Source: Bryoerythrophyllum caledonicum
Taxonomy: Eukaryota > Streptophyta > Bryopsida > Pottiales > Pottiaceae
DNA: 64,000 bases
Direction of reading: 5' to 3'
Assembly (NCBI GenBank): GCA_963971425.1
Contig: OZ020519.1
Coordinates: 7,766,028 to 7,830,027 of the forward strand
Shown here: piece after piece, positions 33,438 through 43,474 of the stretch
Layout: each line of letters begins with the position of its first letter
Position numbering within the stretch: position 1 is the stretch's first letter
Translations under genes and position numbers: made by a program
Notes under the pieces: generated by a model
Databases searched by the model: none
The model's input: the letters and a program-made list of their open reading frames with translations, nothing else
Told to the model about the DNA's origin: nothing

Positions 33438-33508
33438 ATACGCTCCTCATGAACCCGTGATTAGCCCGTGATTAGCCCGTGATTAGCCCGTGATTAGCCT
33501 GAGCGTAT
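33438..33508. repeat. 11-bp x4 array inside an 8-bp inverted repeat
   Basis: Four perfect head-to-tail copies of CCCGTGATTAG (33454-33497) are flanked by ATACGCTC (33438-33445) and its inverse GAGCGTAT (33501-33508). It lies about 450 bp upstream of the clathrin ATG. It may be a regulatory array or a small unstable minisatellite. Confidence 0.6.
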
Positions 33509-33953: not shown

Positions 33954-36900
33954 ATGGCGGCCGCCAACGCTCCCATCGCTATGAAGGAGGCGTTAACGGT
34001 GCGTACGCCACCGTTTAATTTGATTTTTTTAGGATTTGGTGAGATCTGTGGATCGGGAGGGCGGGGGAAATCGTTTCGTTAGGGTTTTTGAGGGGGTTTG
34101 GTGTGTGGCAATGCTGCAGCTGACGAGCTTGGGGATAAATCAACAATTCGTGACGTTCACGCATGTCACGATGGAGTCGGAGAAGTACATTTGCGTGCGG
34201 GAGACCTCGCCGCAGAACAGCGTGGTGATCATTGACATGGCGATGCCGAACCAGCCGCTGCGCCGGCCGATTACGGCGGACTCCGCGCTCATGAATCCGT
34301 CCAGCCGCGTGCTTGCCCTAAAAGGTGCGTCCTGAATCTTTCAGTGGAAGTTTTGAGGTTTCGAGTCTCTAGAGAATACTGACGTTTGGTGTTCCGGTCC
34401 AATGTTTAGCTCTAATCCCGGGGACTACTCAAGACCATTTGCAAATTTTTAACATCGAGTTGAAATCGAAGATGAAGTCTTATCAGATGCCGGAACAGGT
34501 ATGCGGTGAATTTGCTTGTTTGGGGAAGAAATTTCAAAAAGTATTTTGCTGGCGAATGGGATTAGGTTTTTAATTCTACTTTCTTTACAGGTGGTGTTTT
34601 GGAAGTGGATCACTCCAAAGTTGCTTGGGCTCGTCACACAGTCTTCAGTGTATCACTGGTCCATCGAAGGTATGGATAGTACGAATCATAAGCTTGTTGC
34701 GAGGTTATGGATGTAGTAGAAAGATTTTGGAACTTATAATTTTTTTCTGGTTTGAATCATCGGTTGTAGGTGAAACTGAGCCGGTGAAGATGTTCGAGAG
34801 AACTGCAAATTTGACTGGCAACCAGATCATTAATTACCGGTGTGATCCCTCTGAGAAGTGGCTCGTATTGATCGGCATTGCGCCTGGTGCAGCTGAGGTA
34901 CGTACATGTTTGGATAAAGCATGGGAATGAGAGCTCTGGAACAGTTCTTTGACACCATGTGATGTGATTTACAGCGCCCGCAGCTTGTGAAAGGAAACAT
35001 GCAGCTGTTTTCCGTGGATCAGCAGAGAAGTCAAGCATTAGAAGCTCATGCAGCATCATTTGCATCTTTTAAGGTAAAATGGTCATGTTGCTGAGCTTGA
35101 TATGATGTGAGGGAGTGCGTTCATCTCTTTACTTGCTGTTGGAGATGCGGTTGTGATCTTTCGAGGTGCTGTCTTGAGTGATCCAGGTTCGAGGCAGTGA
35201 AAAGCCCTCTCTTTTTATTTCATTCGCAACAAAGACATTAATTGGCGGTCAGCTGGTTTCCAAAATGCATGTTATTGAGCTGGGGGCTCAGCCAGGTCGG
35301 TGTCTTCTTTTCTTTCCTCGTGTAGTTATCCTAAATCGATTTGATGAAATCAGGTGCCAGGAAACGACTCACCAAGTCTCCTGATTGCCTTCTCAACGAA
35401 AACCATTACTGCTGGACAGCTTACATCGAAGCTGCATATCATTGAGCTTGGTGCTCAGCCAGGTTGGTTCGACCTGGCAACGATCCATCTCTATTGGCTC
35501 AGTGCATTTAGTGTCCTCCACCCGCATCATTTCCCTAGAACTCAAATTTCAATTCCCAGCTCATCTCAGTTCCTACCTTTCATCTTTCGAACAAAGTGCT
35601 CATGTGAGGCACTGAACTGAACTGGAATTCGACTCCTACGACTAGTCTTCCGGGTCTATTACATGCAACGGGGCTGCTGTCGTTTTCACAACAGCTCAGA
35701 GTTTTCTAATAGCTGGCTCTTTTTGTACGTTTGGTTGCAGGGAGACCTAGCTTCGCAAAGAAGCAGGCAGATCTGTTCTTCCCTCCAGATTTTGCAGATG
35801 ATTTTCCCGTTGCAATGCAGGTGGGTTCTTTTGTATGGTGTCACTTGGAATGAGTTCTCGTTCATGGATGTCGTCTTGCTAGACTTTGTTCTGTTTTCTT
35901 TGTTTTATGATGCCCGTCAGTTCAAGAAGTTAAAGTGTATTCGAATTTGAACATGTTCCTCTTGTATGCTCTAATAGTTCATGTATGACCTTCGAGGATA
36001 CCTTTTCAACTAGGATGACCATGGTTTTTGCAGATTTCATCGAAATACAATCTTATTTACGTCATCACGAAACTGGGCCTTCTTTTTGTCTACGATCTGG
36101 AAACTGCTACAGCTGTGTATAGGAACCGTATCAGCCCAGATCCGATCTTTTTGACAGCTGATGCACCAGCAGTGGGCGGGTTTTATGCGGTCAATCGTCG
36201 TGGACAAGTTCTACTGGCCACTGTTAACGAGGCCACGATTGTTCCATTCGTCAGCAATCAGGTGAACATTTTGCTTCACAAATTAGTATTTTATGGCATT
36301 TTTGTTGAAGTACACCACGATATTGACTTCCTACTCGAGTCGGATGATGGGGATGGTTATTTTTTGGTTCATTTTCTGACCTGGTGGTATCCACTCTATC
36401 TGGCAGCTGAATAATTTGGAGCTCGCGGTGAATCTTGCAAGGCGAGGAAATTTGCCTGGAGCGGAGGGCCTGGTATGTTATTTATTGTGGGAATTGGCGT
36501 CGGCGTTTGAAATTTATTCAGATCTGCGCTTGTCAGTTGGACTTTTTGTGTTGCTGAATCTAGTATATGTGTCATCTTTCTTGAATGTGGGGCTGTTAAA
36601 TGTCTGTATATCATCTCCTTGACTTTTACATGTAATATCTTACATTGACGAGGATGGGAATTTCTTGTTGGATACAGGTTGTTCAACGTTTCCAAGAGTT
36701 GTTCTCCCAAATGAAATACAAGGAAGCAGCTGACCTTGCAGCTGAATCACCAAAGGGGATTCTTCGAACTCCAGATACTGTGGCTAAGTTCCAGGTTCGT
36801 CACCCACTTACACTATAAATCTAATCCAATTTAATATCTACAAGGTGTATGCATTTATTGATGTAGGTTCTGTTTTTCTTCCAAGTCACTAGCACGGATT

Positions 36901-39900
36901 GGATGGACTTCATCAGTGTTAATATCTCCTCTATTCCTGATGTAATATAATCTCATTTCTTCTGTTTTCTTATTGCAGAGTGTTCCGGTGCAGCCCGGAC
37001 AGACTTCGCCACTTCTGCAGTACTTTGGAACTTTGCTGACGAAGGGCAAATTAAATTTGTTCGAGTCTTTGGAGCTTTCTCGCTTGGTTGTAAATCAAAA
37101 CAAGAAGAATTTGCTCGAGAACTGGTTGGCTGAGGACAAGCTTGAGTGCAGTGAAGAGCTGGGAGATCTTGTAAAGGTAATGTTTTATAACTATTTTTGT
37201 CTGATCTAATACCTACTGAAAGTTTTTTTCTAAATGGTCTCATGTACTGAGTTCCTCGCTTATCGTTTATGACTTCCACTTGTGTTGGAAGTCATGCAGA
37301 CTTAAGATGTATTTGGTTATCGTTCACAAGCTAGTTTCAGTCTGTAATGTTAGGGCTTTCTTGAATACACATCGGGATCTGACGATTGCTATTTGCAACG
37401 GGTTCATTTGTGTCAAAATAGAGTACAGTGAGAGGGCTTTCTTCTGCTTTGTTTTTGTTTGTGGTTATCGTCTGGGGCATTTAGCTGTGCTAATTTACTG
37501 TAATTGTGTTTTTGACTTTTCAGACTGTGGACAACGACATGGCTCTGAAAATCTACATTAAGGCCAGAGCTACTCCCAAGGTGGTTGCAGCTTTTGCTGA
37601 GCGGGGTGAATTTGACAAGATTTTGATCTACTCCAAGCAGGTTAGTTTTCTACAAGCTCTTTGAACCGTCTTGACAGCTTTGGGGAGTTGTTTACTGGAA
37701 TGTTATATATCAGTAGTTTCTCTTATCCTTTTCACATTGGGCCAACTTGTCGGTGTACGGCAAATAGAAGCAGACAAGTTACCTACAAAATTATTGACGC
37801 AATGTTGCCTATACTGCAGGTCGGCTATACTCCAGATTACTTGTTCCTTCTGCAGACAATCTTGCGATCAGATCCTCAGGTACGTATGAGCTTCGTACAT
37901 TTTGTTCCAAAAAGTACTCAGAAGTGTTTTCATTCCTTGTAACATATAACTTAGTTCTAATTCTATCTATTTTTTTGTGTGAATGCAGGCTGCTGTGAAC
38001 TTCGCTCTGATGATGTCTCAGCTGGAAGGAGGTTGCCCAGTAGATTACAATGTCATCACTGATTTGTTTCTTCAGGTATGGATCAATGCTGATTTTTGTT
38101 TGACGTTGAGTGCAGCTTACCGGGAGTATTAGAGGCCATTTGGTTTCTGATGTGTTGCATCTTCTGACATGCTTGTTCTCGTCGTGCAGCGTAACATGAT
38201 CAGGGAGGCAACAGCGTTCCTTTTGGATGTTTTGAAGCCTAATCTGCCAGAGCATGCGTTGCTTCAAACCAAGGTATGTTTTGGCCTTCTGCATGCCATA
38301 CTTTTGTACAATTATGTGCACATGGTATTGACTTCAATGACCATTTTTTGACCTTTTAGGTTGTTCTAGCAAGTCTGTTTATCTCAATTGCCTCTAATCC
38401 TCGCACCTGAAGCTTTTGCCCTTTTTGCATATATTTTTCTCACTCCAACTGAGTGGAGATTTATTTTCTGTAATTTTAAATTTTACCTCCCCTGATATTG
38501 ACATGTTCTGATTTACCATTTCAGGTGCTGGAGATTAATCTCGTCACATTTCCTAATGTGGCTGATGCAATTCTGGCCAACGGCATGTTCAGCCATTACG
38601 ATCGTCCTCGCATTGCTCAGCTGTGTGAGAAAGCTGGTCTGTACGTGCGTGCTCTTCAGCACTACACAGAGCTGAATGATATCAAGCGTGTTGTGATTAA
38701 CACTCATGCTATTGAGCCTCAGGTATCCAAGTTATAGCCTTCTCATTTATCTCTATTTTTTCTGTGTTTCCTTCTGTTGTATGATGGAAGTTTAAGTCAA
38801 ATGCTCTGTGCTGTCTCATAAGACTGAACTGTAACGAGCCTGTACATCTTTGTGTCTCTGTAGGCTCTCGTAGAATTCTTTGGAACACTGTCAAAGGAGT
38901 GGGCTTTAGACTGCATGAAGGAGCTGCTCCAAGTCAACATGCGAGGCAACCTTCAAATTATTGTGCAGGTGTGTTTCAAATTTGCAGCTGGTTAGCAATT
39001 CCAATATTTAATGAATTTTAAATATGTGAAGGTACTTTGCTAGTTTTCTCTAATGGCTAAGTAATACTATATTGATAGGGATGTTGGTATCTGATACTCT
39101 AACCTTCAATCAATTAACAAGTGTATTTGTACAGGTCGCAAAGGAGTACGGGGAACAGCTGGGTGTTGACCATTGTGTTAAGTTGTTTGAGAGCTTCAAG
39201 TCGTATGAAGGGCTTTACTTTTTCCTTGGTGCATTCCTAAGTACAAGGTGAGTTTTCGTTTGTTAGTATTAATCTTTAGGATGGCCGTAGGCAAGGCAAT
39301 CTGGTTTGGATAAGTATCGTGAGATGCCTAAAATTTCGTGATGTTACTTTTTCATGTTTCTTTTGGCATCGTGCTCAAGTACAATCCTTCTTAATCGATT
39401 GGCTGCTGTGTTCAGTGAGGACCCTGAGATTCACTACAAGTACATTGAAGCCGCAGCCAAGACTGGCCAAATCAAAGAAGTGGAGCGTGTCACACGAGAG
39501 TCGAACTTCTATCCTGCGGAGAGGACCAAAAATTTCTTGATGGAAGCGAAGTTGCCAGACGCAAGGCCTCTAATTAATGTTTGTGATCGCCATGGCTACG
39601 TGCCTGATCTTACTCATTATCTCTATGCCAACAACATGCTTCGATATATCGAGGGATATGTGCAAAAGGTAATTCTTTTTTTGAAATCAGTGGCTCGTAA
39701 TCGAACTGCGTGCTGCACTCCTGAATACCTACCTAACGTCTGTGTAACATGTAGGTCAATCCTCAAAACGCACCTTTGGTGGTTGGGCAATTGCTGGATG
39801 ATGACTGCCCTGAGGATTTCATCAAGGGCTTAATCTTGTCTGTCCGCTCATTGCTTCCAGTGGAGCCTCTAGTCGCCGAGTGCGAGAAGAGGTAACGTGA

Positions 39901-42900
39901 ATGTTCTAATCTGTCATCTGACTGGTTCTACTTTTTAACCATTTTAATCCACACTGTATTTCGTTCGTCAGGGATACTACTAGTGTCGAGACAGTTTCGA
40001 GTTTGGATTCTCACGGAATCCTGGCGCTGACGAGTTCATCACTAATAGGCTGTGCCTCTTGACAGGAATCGTCTCCGGCTCTTGACCCAATTCTTGGAGC
40101 ATTTGGTGAGTGAAGGAAGCCAAGATGTGCATGTGCACAATGCTCTTGGGAAGATCATCATCGATACCAACAACAACCCTGAGCATTTCCTCACCACCAA
40201 TCCTTACTATGACTCGAAAGTCGTTGGCAAGTATTGTGAGAAGCGCGACCCCACGCTTGCAGTTGTTGCATACAGACGAGGCCTATGTGACGATGAGCTT
40301 GTTGCCGTCACCAACAAGAACTCTCTGTTCAAGCTTCAGGCCAGGTGAGGCTCCTTCCTCTTTCTTTGCCGCCGGAAAAATATCATCAGACTCGATTCAT
40401 TTAGAATCTCAGGCTCCTCGGTCAAATATTTCTCTCTGGATGTGTCTATACTTGGCTCCACTTTTATTGTTTTGTAAGTTGGTTCTCTTCTTAAACTCTT
40501 TTGCTATGTGGTATGATCAGGTATGTGGTCGAGCGAATGGAGCCTGACTTGTGGTTGAAGGTTCTGGACCCAGAGAATCCTTGCAGAAGACAGCTCATTG
40601 ATCAAGTGGTGTCTACTGCTCTGCCAGAGAGTAAGAACCCAGAGCAGGTGTCAGCCACCGTGAAGGCGTTCATGACTGCAGACTTGCCTCATGAGTTGAT
40701 TGAGCTTCTAGAGAAGATCGTTCTGCAAAACTCCGCCTTCAGTGGGAACCCGAATCTGCAGAATCTTCTCATTCTCACAGCAATCAAGGCTGACACATCA
40801 AGGGTTATGGATTACATCCACCGGTTGGACAACTTTGATGGTCCGGCTGTGGGAGCAATTGCTGTCGATGCCGAGCTTTACGAGGAGGCGTTCGCAATCT
40901 TCAAGAAGTTCGATCTCAACGTCCAAGCCGTTGATGTTCTTCTGGATAACATGCGCAGCATTGACCGTGCTGTGGAGTTCGCAGCACGCGTGGAAGAAGA
41001 TGAAGTCTGGAGCCACGTGGGTAAGGCGCAGTTGAGAGAAGGCCTGGTCAGCGATGCCATTGAGTCTTTCATCAAGGCTAATGATGCCTCTCAATACAAT
41101 GAAGTTATCGACGTTGCATCTGGTGTGAGGGCATATGAGGATCTCGTGAGATACCTGAACATGGTACGCAAGAAGGTGAAGGAGGCGAAGGTGGATTCTG
41201 AGCTGATCTTCGCATATGCCAAGCTTAACCGGTTGGATGACATTGAGGAGTTTATCGTTGCTCCCAACCTTGCAAACCTGCAAACTGTTGGAGACCGTCT
41301 CTTTGATGAGGCTCTGTATGAAGCTGCTAAGATCATTTTCACACACATTTCCAACTGGGCCCGACTTGCCAGCACTCTTGTCAAGCTTCATCAATTCCAG
41401 GCAGCCGTGGATGCAGCTAGGAAGGCCAACAGCGCACGCACATGGAAGGAAGTCTGCTTTGCTTGCGTGGATGCTGAGGAGTTTCGCCTGGCCCAAATCT
41501 GTGGTCTCAATGTCATTGTCCAGGTATTCAAATGTGTTTAATTTGGGATGAAATTGCTCGTTGTAGTCAACAATCATTGTAATATGCAGTCCAATAGCTA
41601 GAATTTGGCTGTCTCGTGCAAAGTTGGTTTGGGAAAAGCAGCACTAATCCCCTGTGCATGTCTTTTGTAGGTTGATGACTTGGAAGAAGTTAGTGAATAC
41701 TACCAGAACAGGGGTCGTTTCGATGAGCTCATCTCACTCATGGAAAGTGGGCTCGGTTTGGAACGCGCTCACATGGGTATCTTCACAGAGCTTGGCACCT
41801 TGTATGCCAAGTACCGCCCAGAGAAGCTTATGGAGCATCTCAAGCTGTTTGCCACTCGCATTAACATTCCAAGGCTTATCCGTGTTTGCGACGAGCAACA
41901 GCACTGGAAGGAGCTTACATATTTGTACATTCAGTATGATGAGTTCGACAATGCTGCTGCTACCATGATGAGCCATTCTCCAGAGGCATGGGATCACATG
42001 CAGTTCAAGGACGTGGCTGTCAAGGTTGCCAATGTGGAATTGTACTACAAGGCTGCACATTTCTATCTGCAAGAGCACCCAGAACTCATCAATGACTTCC
42101 TCAATGTTCTTGCTGCTCGTGTGGATCACACGAGGGTGGTGGACATCATGAAGAAGGTGAGTTTATAGTCACTTATCTCTGCGCATTCTGAATATATAAT
42201 ATACGTCGTTCGTATGTTGTAGGTATGGTTGCCTGGAAGTTTTTTTTTTCCCATTCAGCTCTATTTTTGGGTAAACACATATCAGAGATGTTTCTCACAT
42301 GGGATTCTACGTAACATCTGCAGGCTGGACAGTTGCCACTCGTGAAGCCATACATGGTGGCTGTACAGAGCGCGAACAATGCTGCAGTGAACGAGGCTCT
42401 GAACGGGCTCTACATCGAGGATGAAGATTACGAGCGGCTCAGGGAGTCCATTGATATGTATGATAACTTCGACCAAATTTCAATGGCACAACGGGTAATC
42501 ATCTCCAAGCTTGCAAATCATCACACGTACTGCAATTCTGCTGTCGTTTATTTTAGCACTGGATTATATGCTGAATGCTCTTTTTCCCTTATTCTCGTCA
42601 GATTGAGAAGCACGAGCTTCTCGAAATGCGAAGGGTGGCGGCTTACATCTACAAGAGGGCTGGGAGGTGGAAACAGTCGGTGGCTCTCTCTAAGAAGGAC
42701 AACTTGTACAAGGATGCCATGGAAACTTGCTCTCAGTCAGGCGACCGTGATCTCGCTGAGGAGTTGCTTACTTTCTTTGTGGACAAGGTAACTGATCTCA
42801 CTCCTTGTATCTTTGTCTGTCTGTATATACTTCCTCACTCCAGTCTTGTCCTAATTTGTACATCGGGGTCTCTGCTCTTTTATACAGGGCAAAAAGGAAT

Positions 42901-43474
42901 GTTTCGCTGCATGCTTGTACACCTGCTACGACCTCATCCGTGCCGACGTTGCCGTGGAGCTGGCCTGGATGCACGGCATCATGGATTTCGCTGTACCCTA
43001 CTTGTTGCAGGTCAGTAGTCTTTTTTCTTCCTCACATGTCACTTCGTAAATAAGCCCTTCTTTGCGAACCAGTTACTCATCAATATCATCTCTTCCAGTT
43101 CATGCGCGAGTACACAACAAAGGTTGACGAGCTCATCAAGGACAAAATCGAAGCAACCGAAGAGAAGAGGTCCAAGGAATCTGAGGAGAAAGACGTAGTA
43201 GCCCAACAGGTAAATTCCCCTCACCAGCATCCCCCTGTCAGTCAGTCATCTATTTCTCTCCCATGAGATGTGTCAACACTTTGGCTGAGTTTCTACTGTT
43301 TTTTCGATGCAGAACATGTATGCTCAGCTGTTGCCTCTAGCTCTCCCCGCTCCACCGGTTGCCGGAATGGGAGGCCCCATGCCAGGCATGGCCGGAATGC
43401 CTGCCATGGGCGGAGGGATGCCATATGGTGGAATGCCAGGAGGGTACGGTATGCCTTCCATGAGCTCATTCTAA
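33954..43474 (+). CDS. CHC: Clathrin heavy chain
   Basis: Structural subunit of the clathrin triskelion, coating vesicles at the plasma membrane and trans-Golgi/endosomes. There are 29 exons: 33954-33998, 34120-34324, 34410-34498, 34591-34669, 34770-34897, 34975-35073, exon 7 as two alternatives (35187-35295 or 35354-35462), 35741-35820, 36034-36261, 36407-36472, 36678-36794, 36979-37176, 37524-37640, 37820-37879, 37989-38075, 38190-38273, 38525-38722, 38864-38968, 39135-39247, 39416-39668, 39755-39891, 40066-40344, 40521-41523, 41671-42156, 42324-42494, 42602-42787, 42888-43010, 43099-43209, 43313-43474. With one exon 7 the CDS is 5118 nt, 1705 residues, the same length I recall for Arabidopsis CHC1. 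It starts [15 protein letters not shown]. Residues 1 to about 330 form the seven-bladed propeller; the rest is the CHCR leg repeats and trimerisation region, ending in a Gly/Met/Pro-rich tail. All introns are GT-AG. It appears intact. Confidence 0.97.
35187..35295 (+). other. CHC: Clathrin alternative exon 7a (109 nt)
   Basis: Encodes [16 protein letters not shown] then a [16 protein letters not shown] stretch, residues 216-251 of the propeller. The acceptor is atccag and the donor gtcggt. It enters in phase 0 and leaves in phase 1, exactly like exon 7b. Compared with 7b, 13 of 36 residues differ, many conservatively, and the reading frame is intact, which argues for retained function. It has RGSEK where plant clathrins usually have a VPGN-type start. 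Confidence 0.85.
35354..35462 (+). other. CHC: Clathrin alternative exon 7b (109 nt), canonical-like
   Basis: Encodes [16 protein letters not shown] then a [16 protein letters not shown] stretch, closer than 7a to the plant consensus. The acceptor is gaaatcag and the donor gttggt. The intron between 7a and 7b is only 58 nt, shorter than every other intron of this gene, which would hinder direct 7a-7b splicing. Confidence 0.88.

Follow-up and report, generated by a model that had tools for sequence, protein, structure and literature searches.

A tandem pair of apparently mutually exclusive exons in a moss clathrin heavy chain gene

Introduction

Tandem-duplicated exons that are spliced in a mutually exclusive manner are best known from animals, and the classical cases of steric exclusion are reportedly those of alpha-tropomyosin and alpha-actinin. 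Clathrin heavy chain (CHC) is the chief protein in the coats of transport vesicles; it is essential, and its degree of conservation is high. Whereas the classical short-intron clusters are likewise said to be animal ones, the exon pair described here lies in a plant CHC gene.

Two-exon clusters with a short intron, as described in the available text of PMC6071210, share several properties with this pair: the tandem exons are homologous and equal in length and phase, the spacer between them is below intron length, and the wrong combinations cause a frameshift. In Dscam, 14-3-3zeta, and Mhc, competing RNA structures are described in which one element matches a site beside every one of the duplicated exons and forms one pairing at a time (PMC6071210, part available). 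The locus studied here likewise has a single element with a complementary site at both exons (an intronic box predicted to pair with both donors), but in contrast to Dscam-type docking sites, it is the 5' splice sites themselves that are predicted to pair, and there are only two exons. A study cited in the same text attributes, by its title, exclusion at Dscam exon 17 to steric hindrance combined with RNA structure, a combination that resembles the one proposed for our gene.

Exclusive exon choice has also been described in plant genes, namely Arabidopsis MAF1/FLM (PMC3266260) and Picea abies DAL19 and DAL1 (PMC6243048). According to the parts of these sources available to us, these genes encode transcription factors of the MADS-box class, the two exclusive exons of MAF1 account for 19 and 15 aa, and the DAL choices lie near the gene ends. 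Unlike those cases, the present one concerns an equal-length duplicated internal exon of a coat protein in two mosses. The affected domain is the well-known clathrin propeller with its arrestin box, and the available portions of the literature on it contain no heavy-chain diversity by exon choice. In the available text of a review from 2026 on clathrin-mediated endocytosis in plants, splicing is mentioned once, for Chara light chains (PMC13176895). We found no report of heavy-chain diversity by exclusive exons in plants in the literature on CHC, exclusive exons, and moss and plant splicing (a search that was thin on subscription journals), which agrees with the statement in the original prediction that no description in plant clathrin was known. 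Exons that exclude each other, and steric exclusion as a cause, are thus already known phenomena, and the plant clathrin heavy-chain pair appears to be the new part.

Results

The CHC gene contains two versions of exon 7

The window (the whole stretch of 64,000 nucleotides that was analyzed) contains a CHC gene (Table 1), which is referred to here as the C7 copy; its paralogs, C6 and C10, are named by their contigs. All introns in the gene model are GT/AG, the borders and phases are consistent, and there are no internal stops in the 1705 aa encoded with either 7a or 7b. Exons 7a and 7b are identical at 23/36 residues and 65% of bases (tblastn E 9.7e-14 in a search of three pieces totaling about 30 kb), and these adjacent, homologous exons of equal length and phase have the character of a tandem duplication of the mutually exclusive type. 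Neither inclusion of both exons nor skipping of both is productive, because the first stop is at codon 282 in each case, within 7b when both are included and in exon 9 when both are skipped. The spacer between 7a and 7b measures 58 nt, compared with 77–347 nt for the remaining 28 introns. The gene model and alignment reproduced the coordinates, 109-nt lengths, phases, AG/GT borders, and 23/36 identity of the original prediction, as well as the two stops and the difference between the 58-nt intron and introns of at least 77 nt elsewhere. The branch point that it had proposed, CTAAAT, fared less well: it is not conserved in the paralogs, in which YTGAT, with its A 10 nt upstream of the 7b exon, is conserved instead. 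Both candidates are at most about 48 nt away from the 7a donor.

Table 1. Features of the CHC gene around exon 7, in window coordinates
Feature	Position	Strand	Description
CHC gene, coding part	33954..43474	+	29 exon positions, two exon 7 versions; 1705 aa
Exon 6	34975..35073	+	gene model; phase 0 at end
Exon 7a (alternative)	35187..35295	+	109 nt, phase 0 to 1; open frame and splice borders; intact in C10 paralog; 7a-like block in P0124
7a donor region GCCAG/GTCG	35291..35299	+	perfect 9-nt complement of the intronic box (inverted repeat I7)
Spacer, 7a donor to 7b acceptor	35296..35353	+	58 nt; shortest interval of the gene
Exon 7b (canonical version)	35354..35462	+	109 nt, phase 0 to 1; 34/36 identical to Physcomitrium patens A9U2Z4
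7b donor region GCCAG/GTTG	35458..35466	+	left arm of predicted hairpin of 9 bp, including one G-U pair, and a 3-nt loop; -16.2 kcal/mol when 41 nt are folded; ranks first in local structure among 65 donors
Intronic anti-donor box CGACCTGGC	35470..35478	+	core GACCTGG in all three genes
Exon 8	35741..35820	+	gene model; phase 1 at start

No clear third copy of the exon was found in the nearby introns. The best of ten intron-exon comparisons (intron 6-7a with 7a) was equaled by 7/300 shuffles and the second best (C6 intron 7b-8 with 7b) by 18/300, and we take both as chance among ten comparisons. A likeness of the type PGND-PSLL 3' of 7b (E 0.85) was rejected as a third copy, as 282 of 300 DNA shuffles were equally good. 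Separately, a perfect 11-bp tandem repeat (CCCGTGATTAG, 4.2 copies) was observed at 33454–33499, about 455 bp upstream of the CHC start codon.

The exon duplication appears to predate the CHC gene duplications

When the 437-Mb genome, in which the window lies on a 31.7-Mb contig (C7), was searched for the clathrin propeller family, three places were identified, one in each CHC gene (C7, C6, and C10). In a tree of 23 CHC proteins, the window gene grouped with Physcomitrium patens A9U2Z4 (support 83/85), although none of the three genes is identical to it, and the C6 and C10 paralogs were sisters (100/99) that adjoined this pair; Sphagnum fell outside, and liverworts and vascular plants lay further off. 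Judged by this position in the tree, the host is a moss. The 7b-form frames of both paralogs are intact at full length (1697 aa in C6 and 1710 aa in C10). In C10, 7a is also intact and the full frame of 1710 aa is maintained with either exon, whereas in C6 only 7b is intact and 7a is a relic with frame damage and a stop. Because the pair is present in C10, and C6 has a relic 7a beside an intact 7b, we infer that the exon duplication is older than the CHC gene duplications in moss.

The synonymous distances between these sequences were large. Within one gene, 7a and 7b differ by a dS of 2.2–2.8, which is near saturation, and a dN of 0.20–0.26. For exons 1–28 in the 7b form, C7 differs from C6 and C10 by a dS of 1.3–1.6 and a dN of 0.04, and dS between C6 and C10 is 0.87. 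The exons that match 11–22 are fused into one 1748-nt exon in both C6 and C10, and this common feature supports the sister relation suggested by the tree. Relative to positions 36678–40344 of the window, eleven neighboring introns (between 12 exons, 11–22) are gone from C6 and C10, as after repair with spliced RNA. We also observed a rearranged CHC fragment with a stop at about C10:10906117–10906257 (within C10:10902500–10910499). It matches exon 7b of the window gene at 90% over 80 nt and exon 8 at 92% over 52 nt, and it also holds remains of intron 8-9 and a segment from the end of exon 22; there was no match to 7a.

The spacer is shorter than the minimum for a plant intron

The interval between the 7a donor and 7b is the shortest in each of the three genes: it measures 58 nt in C7, 57 nt in C10, and, counted from the donor of the 7a relic, 54 nt in C6. 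All three lengths are below the minimum of 70–73 nt for a functional plant intron that is given after Goodall and Filipowicz in the available part of PMC1626468, in which a plant cut-off of 73 nt was also derived from the authors' own data. An intron that is too short is a known cause of exclusion in two-exon clusters (PMC6071210, part available). The short spacer therefore supports steric exclusion of 7a-7b joining, as predicted from its length: joining would be blocked because the spacer is under the plant minimum, and each transcript would take one of the two exons for the same reason. Products that were mis-spliced to contain both exons or neither would carry an early stop and then be degraded, and the reading frame would in this way remove any wrong product that escaped the spacer block. 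The donors of exon 6 (GTAAAA), 7a (GTCGGT), and 7b (GTTGGT) are unlike the U12 donor consensus and do not point to the U12-type border that exclusion by U2/U12 incompatibility would require. The stops and the spacers of 58 and 57 nt support the proposal in the original prediction that exclusion is enforced by the frame together with a spacer that is too short, and an exclusive choice between 7a and 7b in this moss is most likely.

A conserved predicted hairpin at the 7b donor may influence the choice

In all three genes the 7a donor begins with GTC and the 7b donor with GTT, whereas 55/59 other donors have A or G at this position. When 60 donors were ranked by weakness, 7b was the 5th weakest in each gene, and 7a was 5th in C7 and 15th in C10 and C6. 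The acceptors are not consistently weak (29th, 56th, and 32nd from the bottom of 60 for 7a; 18th, 12th, and 26th for 7b).

The 7b donor can fold into a hairpin with the intronic anti-donor box, with 9 predicted pairs in C7 (GCCAG/GTTG with CGACCTGGC), 8 in C10, and 7 plus an extension in C6. Positions +7 to +15 past the 7b donor are identical at 8/9 sites in the three genes, compared with 0–3/9 in 16 other shared introns and 5/9 after 7a (background 0.20, p 2e-5, calculated post hoc on an alignment that had already been seen). The arms of the hairpin are nearly invariant over the three genes, which amounts to conservation rather than covariation. In predicted binding to the box, 7a and 7b are the best two of 29 donors in C7 (-20.2 and -18.1), and they are second and third in C10 and C6, in which donor 23 binds better. 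Inverted repeats I1, I4, and I8, which link exons with intron 7b-8, were given no weight, because the intron past the box aligns poorly between paralogs.

The new elements here, namely a 7b donor hairpin that is conserved in three genes and an intronic arm that perfectly complements the 7a donor in the window gene, suggest a switch. In a docking-site model with two competing sites, which is possible on these predictions, the box would pair with either the 7b donor or the 7a donor and mask exactly one of them, forming a two-state RNA switch that is perhaps responsive to temperature or to an RNA-binding protein; we regard this as a tentative proposal that is rather unlikely to be correct in this form. 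The same tentative reading would date the conserved core of the switch to before the divergence of the moss CHC paralogs, and would have the switch set the propeller hairpin of clathrin. An alternative that concerns the choice only, and whose chances we put at about even, is that the conserved 15 nt past the 7b donor are an ordinary splicing enhancer or the coding end of a retained intron (GWFDL...), with no donor mask or switch. C6 retains the hairpin despite its dead 7a, these 15 nt contain a sole change that would be silent in the read-through frame, and by mean unpaired probability the 7b donors are just the 9th, 10th, and 25th most hidden of 65, all of which fit this alternative. It is opposed by the finding that, when the same 65 donors are ranked by strength of local structure, 7b donors take three of the top four places, and by the exact complementarity of the box to the 7a donor in the window gene. 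With less certainty than the exclusion itself, then, the choice between 7a and 7b would be set by the weak donors together with the box, which would mask the 7b donor or pair with the 7a donor.

A 7a-type exon is present in a P. patens-like spliced sequence

A protein search with the 7a form (155 found, of which 120 were listed) yielded P0124, a 443-aa sequence (source lgn, 5 members, 2431-nt contig) that is a single cluster representative. P0124 runs from the start codon through exons 1–11 into exon 12 uninterrupted by introns, and because of this the contig must derive from spliced RNA. Over residues 1–415, P0124 and A9U2Z4 (P0004) have 15 differences, all of which fall at 217–252 (exon 7 and the split codon); the rest is identical. 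The exon 7 block of P0124 matches C7 7a at 27/36 residues and C10 7a at 24/36, compared with 22–23/36 for any 7b, whereas exon 7 of A9U2Z4 is of the 7b type (34/36 to window 7b). The plain reading of these sequences is that one P. patens gene carries both 7a and 7b.

Two irregularities in these sequences appear to be technical. The last 20 or so residues of P0124 are in a shifted frame, so that its frame ends early, probably because the contig differs by one base. In A9U2Z4, residue 415, the end of exon 11, is followed by four residues (ASHP) that are absent from P0124 and the window gene, which suggests that A9U2Z4 is a gene model with a misplaced splice border at this point. We assume that 7b, as the canonical form, is used in P. 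patens RNA.

In a tree of exon 7 sequences, the three 7a versions grouped together (83/92) and the 7b versions were mixed with Sphagnum and algal-like sequences; overall support was weak, with only 36 columns. Seven positions (217, 221, 227, 229, 234, 235, and 239) set the three 7a sequences apart from all four 7b sequences, and at five of them (227, 229, 234, 235, and 239) the 7a sequences are alike or almost alike while every 7b differs. The comparison with related species that had been proposed as a check found a 7a-type block in the P. patens-like P0124, and the exon pair is also present in the C10 paralog of the same genome.

Exon 7a has evolved under purifying selection

Between C7 and C10, 7a has accumulated 13 synonymous changes in 28.3 sites and 11 nonsynonymous changes in 79.7 sites (dN/dS 0.215), an excess of synonymous change with a one-sided Fisher p of 0.0007 (rounded counts). 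The dN/dS of 7b in the same comparison is 0.10, and dN is 0.153 for 7a versus 0.053 for 7b. We also simulated neutral evolution, crudely, using substitutions only and C10 7a as a stand-in for the ancestor. Both 7a frames stayed open in 7–14% of 20000 runs, and the observed 27/36 identity of the 7a copies was reached in 0/5000 runs at each of three distances. Judged by these substitution patterns, the results show that the 7a copies evolved under purifying selection. Synonymous divergence, which if unusually low might indicate a splicing constraint, was not significantly reduced (5th to 13th percentile of windows for 7b and 15th for 7a).

These results bear on the possibility that 7a is a dying duplicate, open by luck, rarely spliced, and without function, while 7b does all the work. 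Its decay in C6 and the roughly threefold faster amino acid change in 7a than in 7b are what such a history would produce; the purifying selection seen when C7 7a is compared with C10 7a, the intact 7a-type exon in P. patens-like spliced sequence, and the five positions that consistently distinguish three 7a from four 7b are not, and we consider it quite improbable. The relic in C6 itself shows how far a neglected copy decays in the period after the C6-C10 split and, because C6 has lost its copy, 7a is by this evidence dispensable in at least one paralog. A very improbable account is that regulated splicing of both exons or neither serves to lower CHC mRNA by nonsense-mediated decay, with the protein change secondary, since although either product has a stop at codon 282, a poison exon has no need of selected in-frame amino acids and the spacer, which is under the plant minimum, is too short for joining.

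The exon swap would change one hairpin of the propeller

Alignment to solved clathrin domains places exon 7 at human clathrin residues 206–237, where it encodes a linker and one beta-hairpin of the N-terminal propeller. Structure prediction for P0124 gave a propeller with high confidence (mean pLDDT 89, pTM 0.86, and pLDDT 86–94 in blocks 211–250). It matches clathrin terminal domains of solved structure, among them that of the arrestin complex 3gd1, and exon 7 forms a beta-hairpin in it, with strands at 223–234 and 237–246. The fixed differences between 7a and 7b lie in the linker (217 and 221), strand one (227, 229, and 234), the turn (235), and strand two (239).

The arrestin box is lined by W164, L183, S185, R188, V190, I194, F216, I231, and V233, and F218 and H229 lie in a neighboring patch (PMC5182127, part available). 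At the positions of F216, F218, H229, I231, and V233, the window 7a and 7b, P0124, and A9U2Z4 all have I, F, H, I, and L; C10 7a has Y in place of H at the H229 position. The exon swap would therefore spare the known peptide contacts in two of the three genes with 7a and alter their surroundings, as judged from the alignment and the model. Altered arrestin-box contacts as a consequence of 7a were rejected for the window gene and P0124, in which these residues are unchanged. The suggestion in the original prediction that the choice tunes adaptor specificity is accordingly weakened, since the arrestin-box residues contributed by exon 7 are the same in window 7a and 7b, although C10 7a changes one of them (H to Y). 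Because these residues are the same and the differences are in the turn, adjacent strand positions, and the linker, the swap probably affects the surface or stability of the propeller, or partners beyond the classic peptides.

Distribution of 7a-like sequences among other CHC proteins

No 7a-like exon 7 was present among the best 120 of 1467 CHC proteins (at most 26/36), a search of full-length representatives in which clustering at 90% identity hides isoforms. An initial search for 7a-like proteins gave zero matches, yet it also missed canonical plant CHCs that are present among the proteins searched, and we gave it no weight. Of 240 proteins of at least 100 aa, 23 score higher with 7a than with 7b. 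P0124 is first (142 versus 119), and the remaining 22, which score at most 124 with 7a, are mostly divergent or partial sequences.

Four Sphagnum-like CHC frames (P0125, P0126, P0127, and P0129) are 294–297 aa long on contigs of 5–85 kb (P0127 and P0129 by their listing). In P0125 and P0126, on contigs of 5 and 26 kb, exons 2–9 form one open frame; the introns needed for exon choice seem to have been lost there, which would make the choice impossible. The exon 7 motifs are present twice in P0123 (Oryza meridionalis, 607 aa), probably as a gene-model artefact or a local duplication.

Discussion

We conclude that a tandem duplication older than the moss CHC paralogs and the split from P. patens very probably gave rise to interchangeable versions of exon 7, one of which would be used per transcript. 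P0124 shows P. patens-like RNA in which splicing has placed a 7a-type exon between exons 6 and 8. The reading frames, the paralogs, the signature of selection, and P0124 together support the tandem duplication, and the coding use of both copies, that had been proposed for this locus. An ancient duplication of this kind would let one CHC gene make two forms of the propeller.

The finding would mean that a plant coat-protein gene has an exclusive exon pair retained by selection, and that the pair is present in the genetically tractable P. patens, in which gene replacement by homologous recombination is feasible (PMC13176895, part available). It makes testable both exclusion in plants by spacer length and donor masking, and the role that a second propeller hairpin may have in endocytosis.
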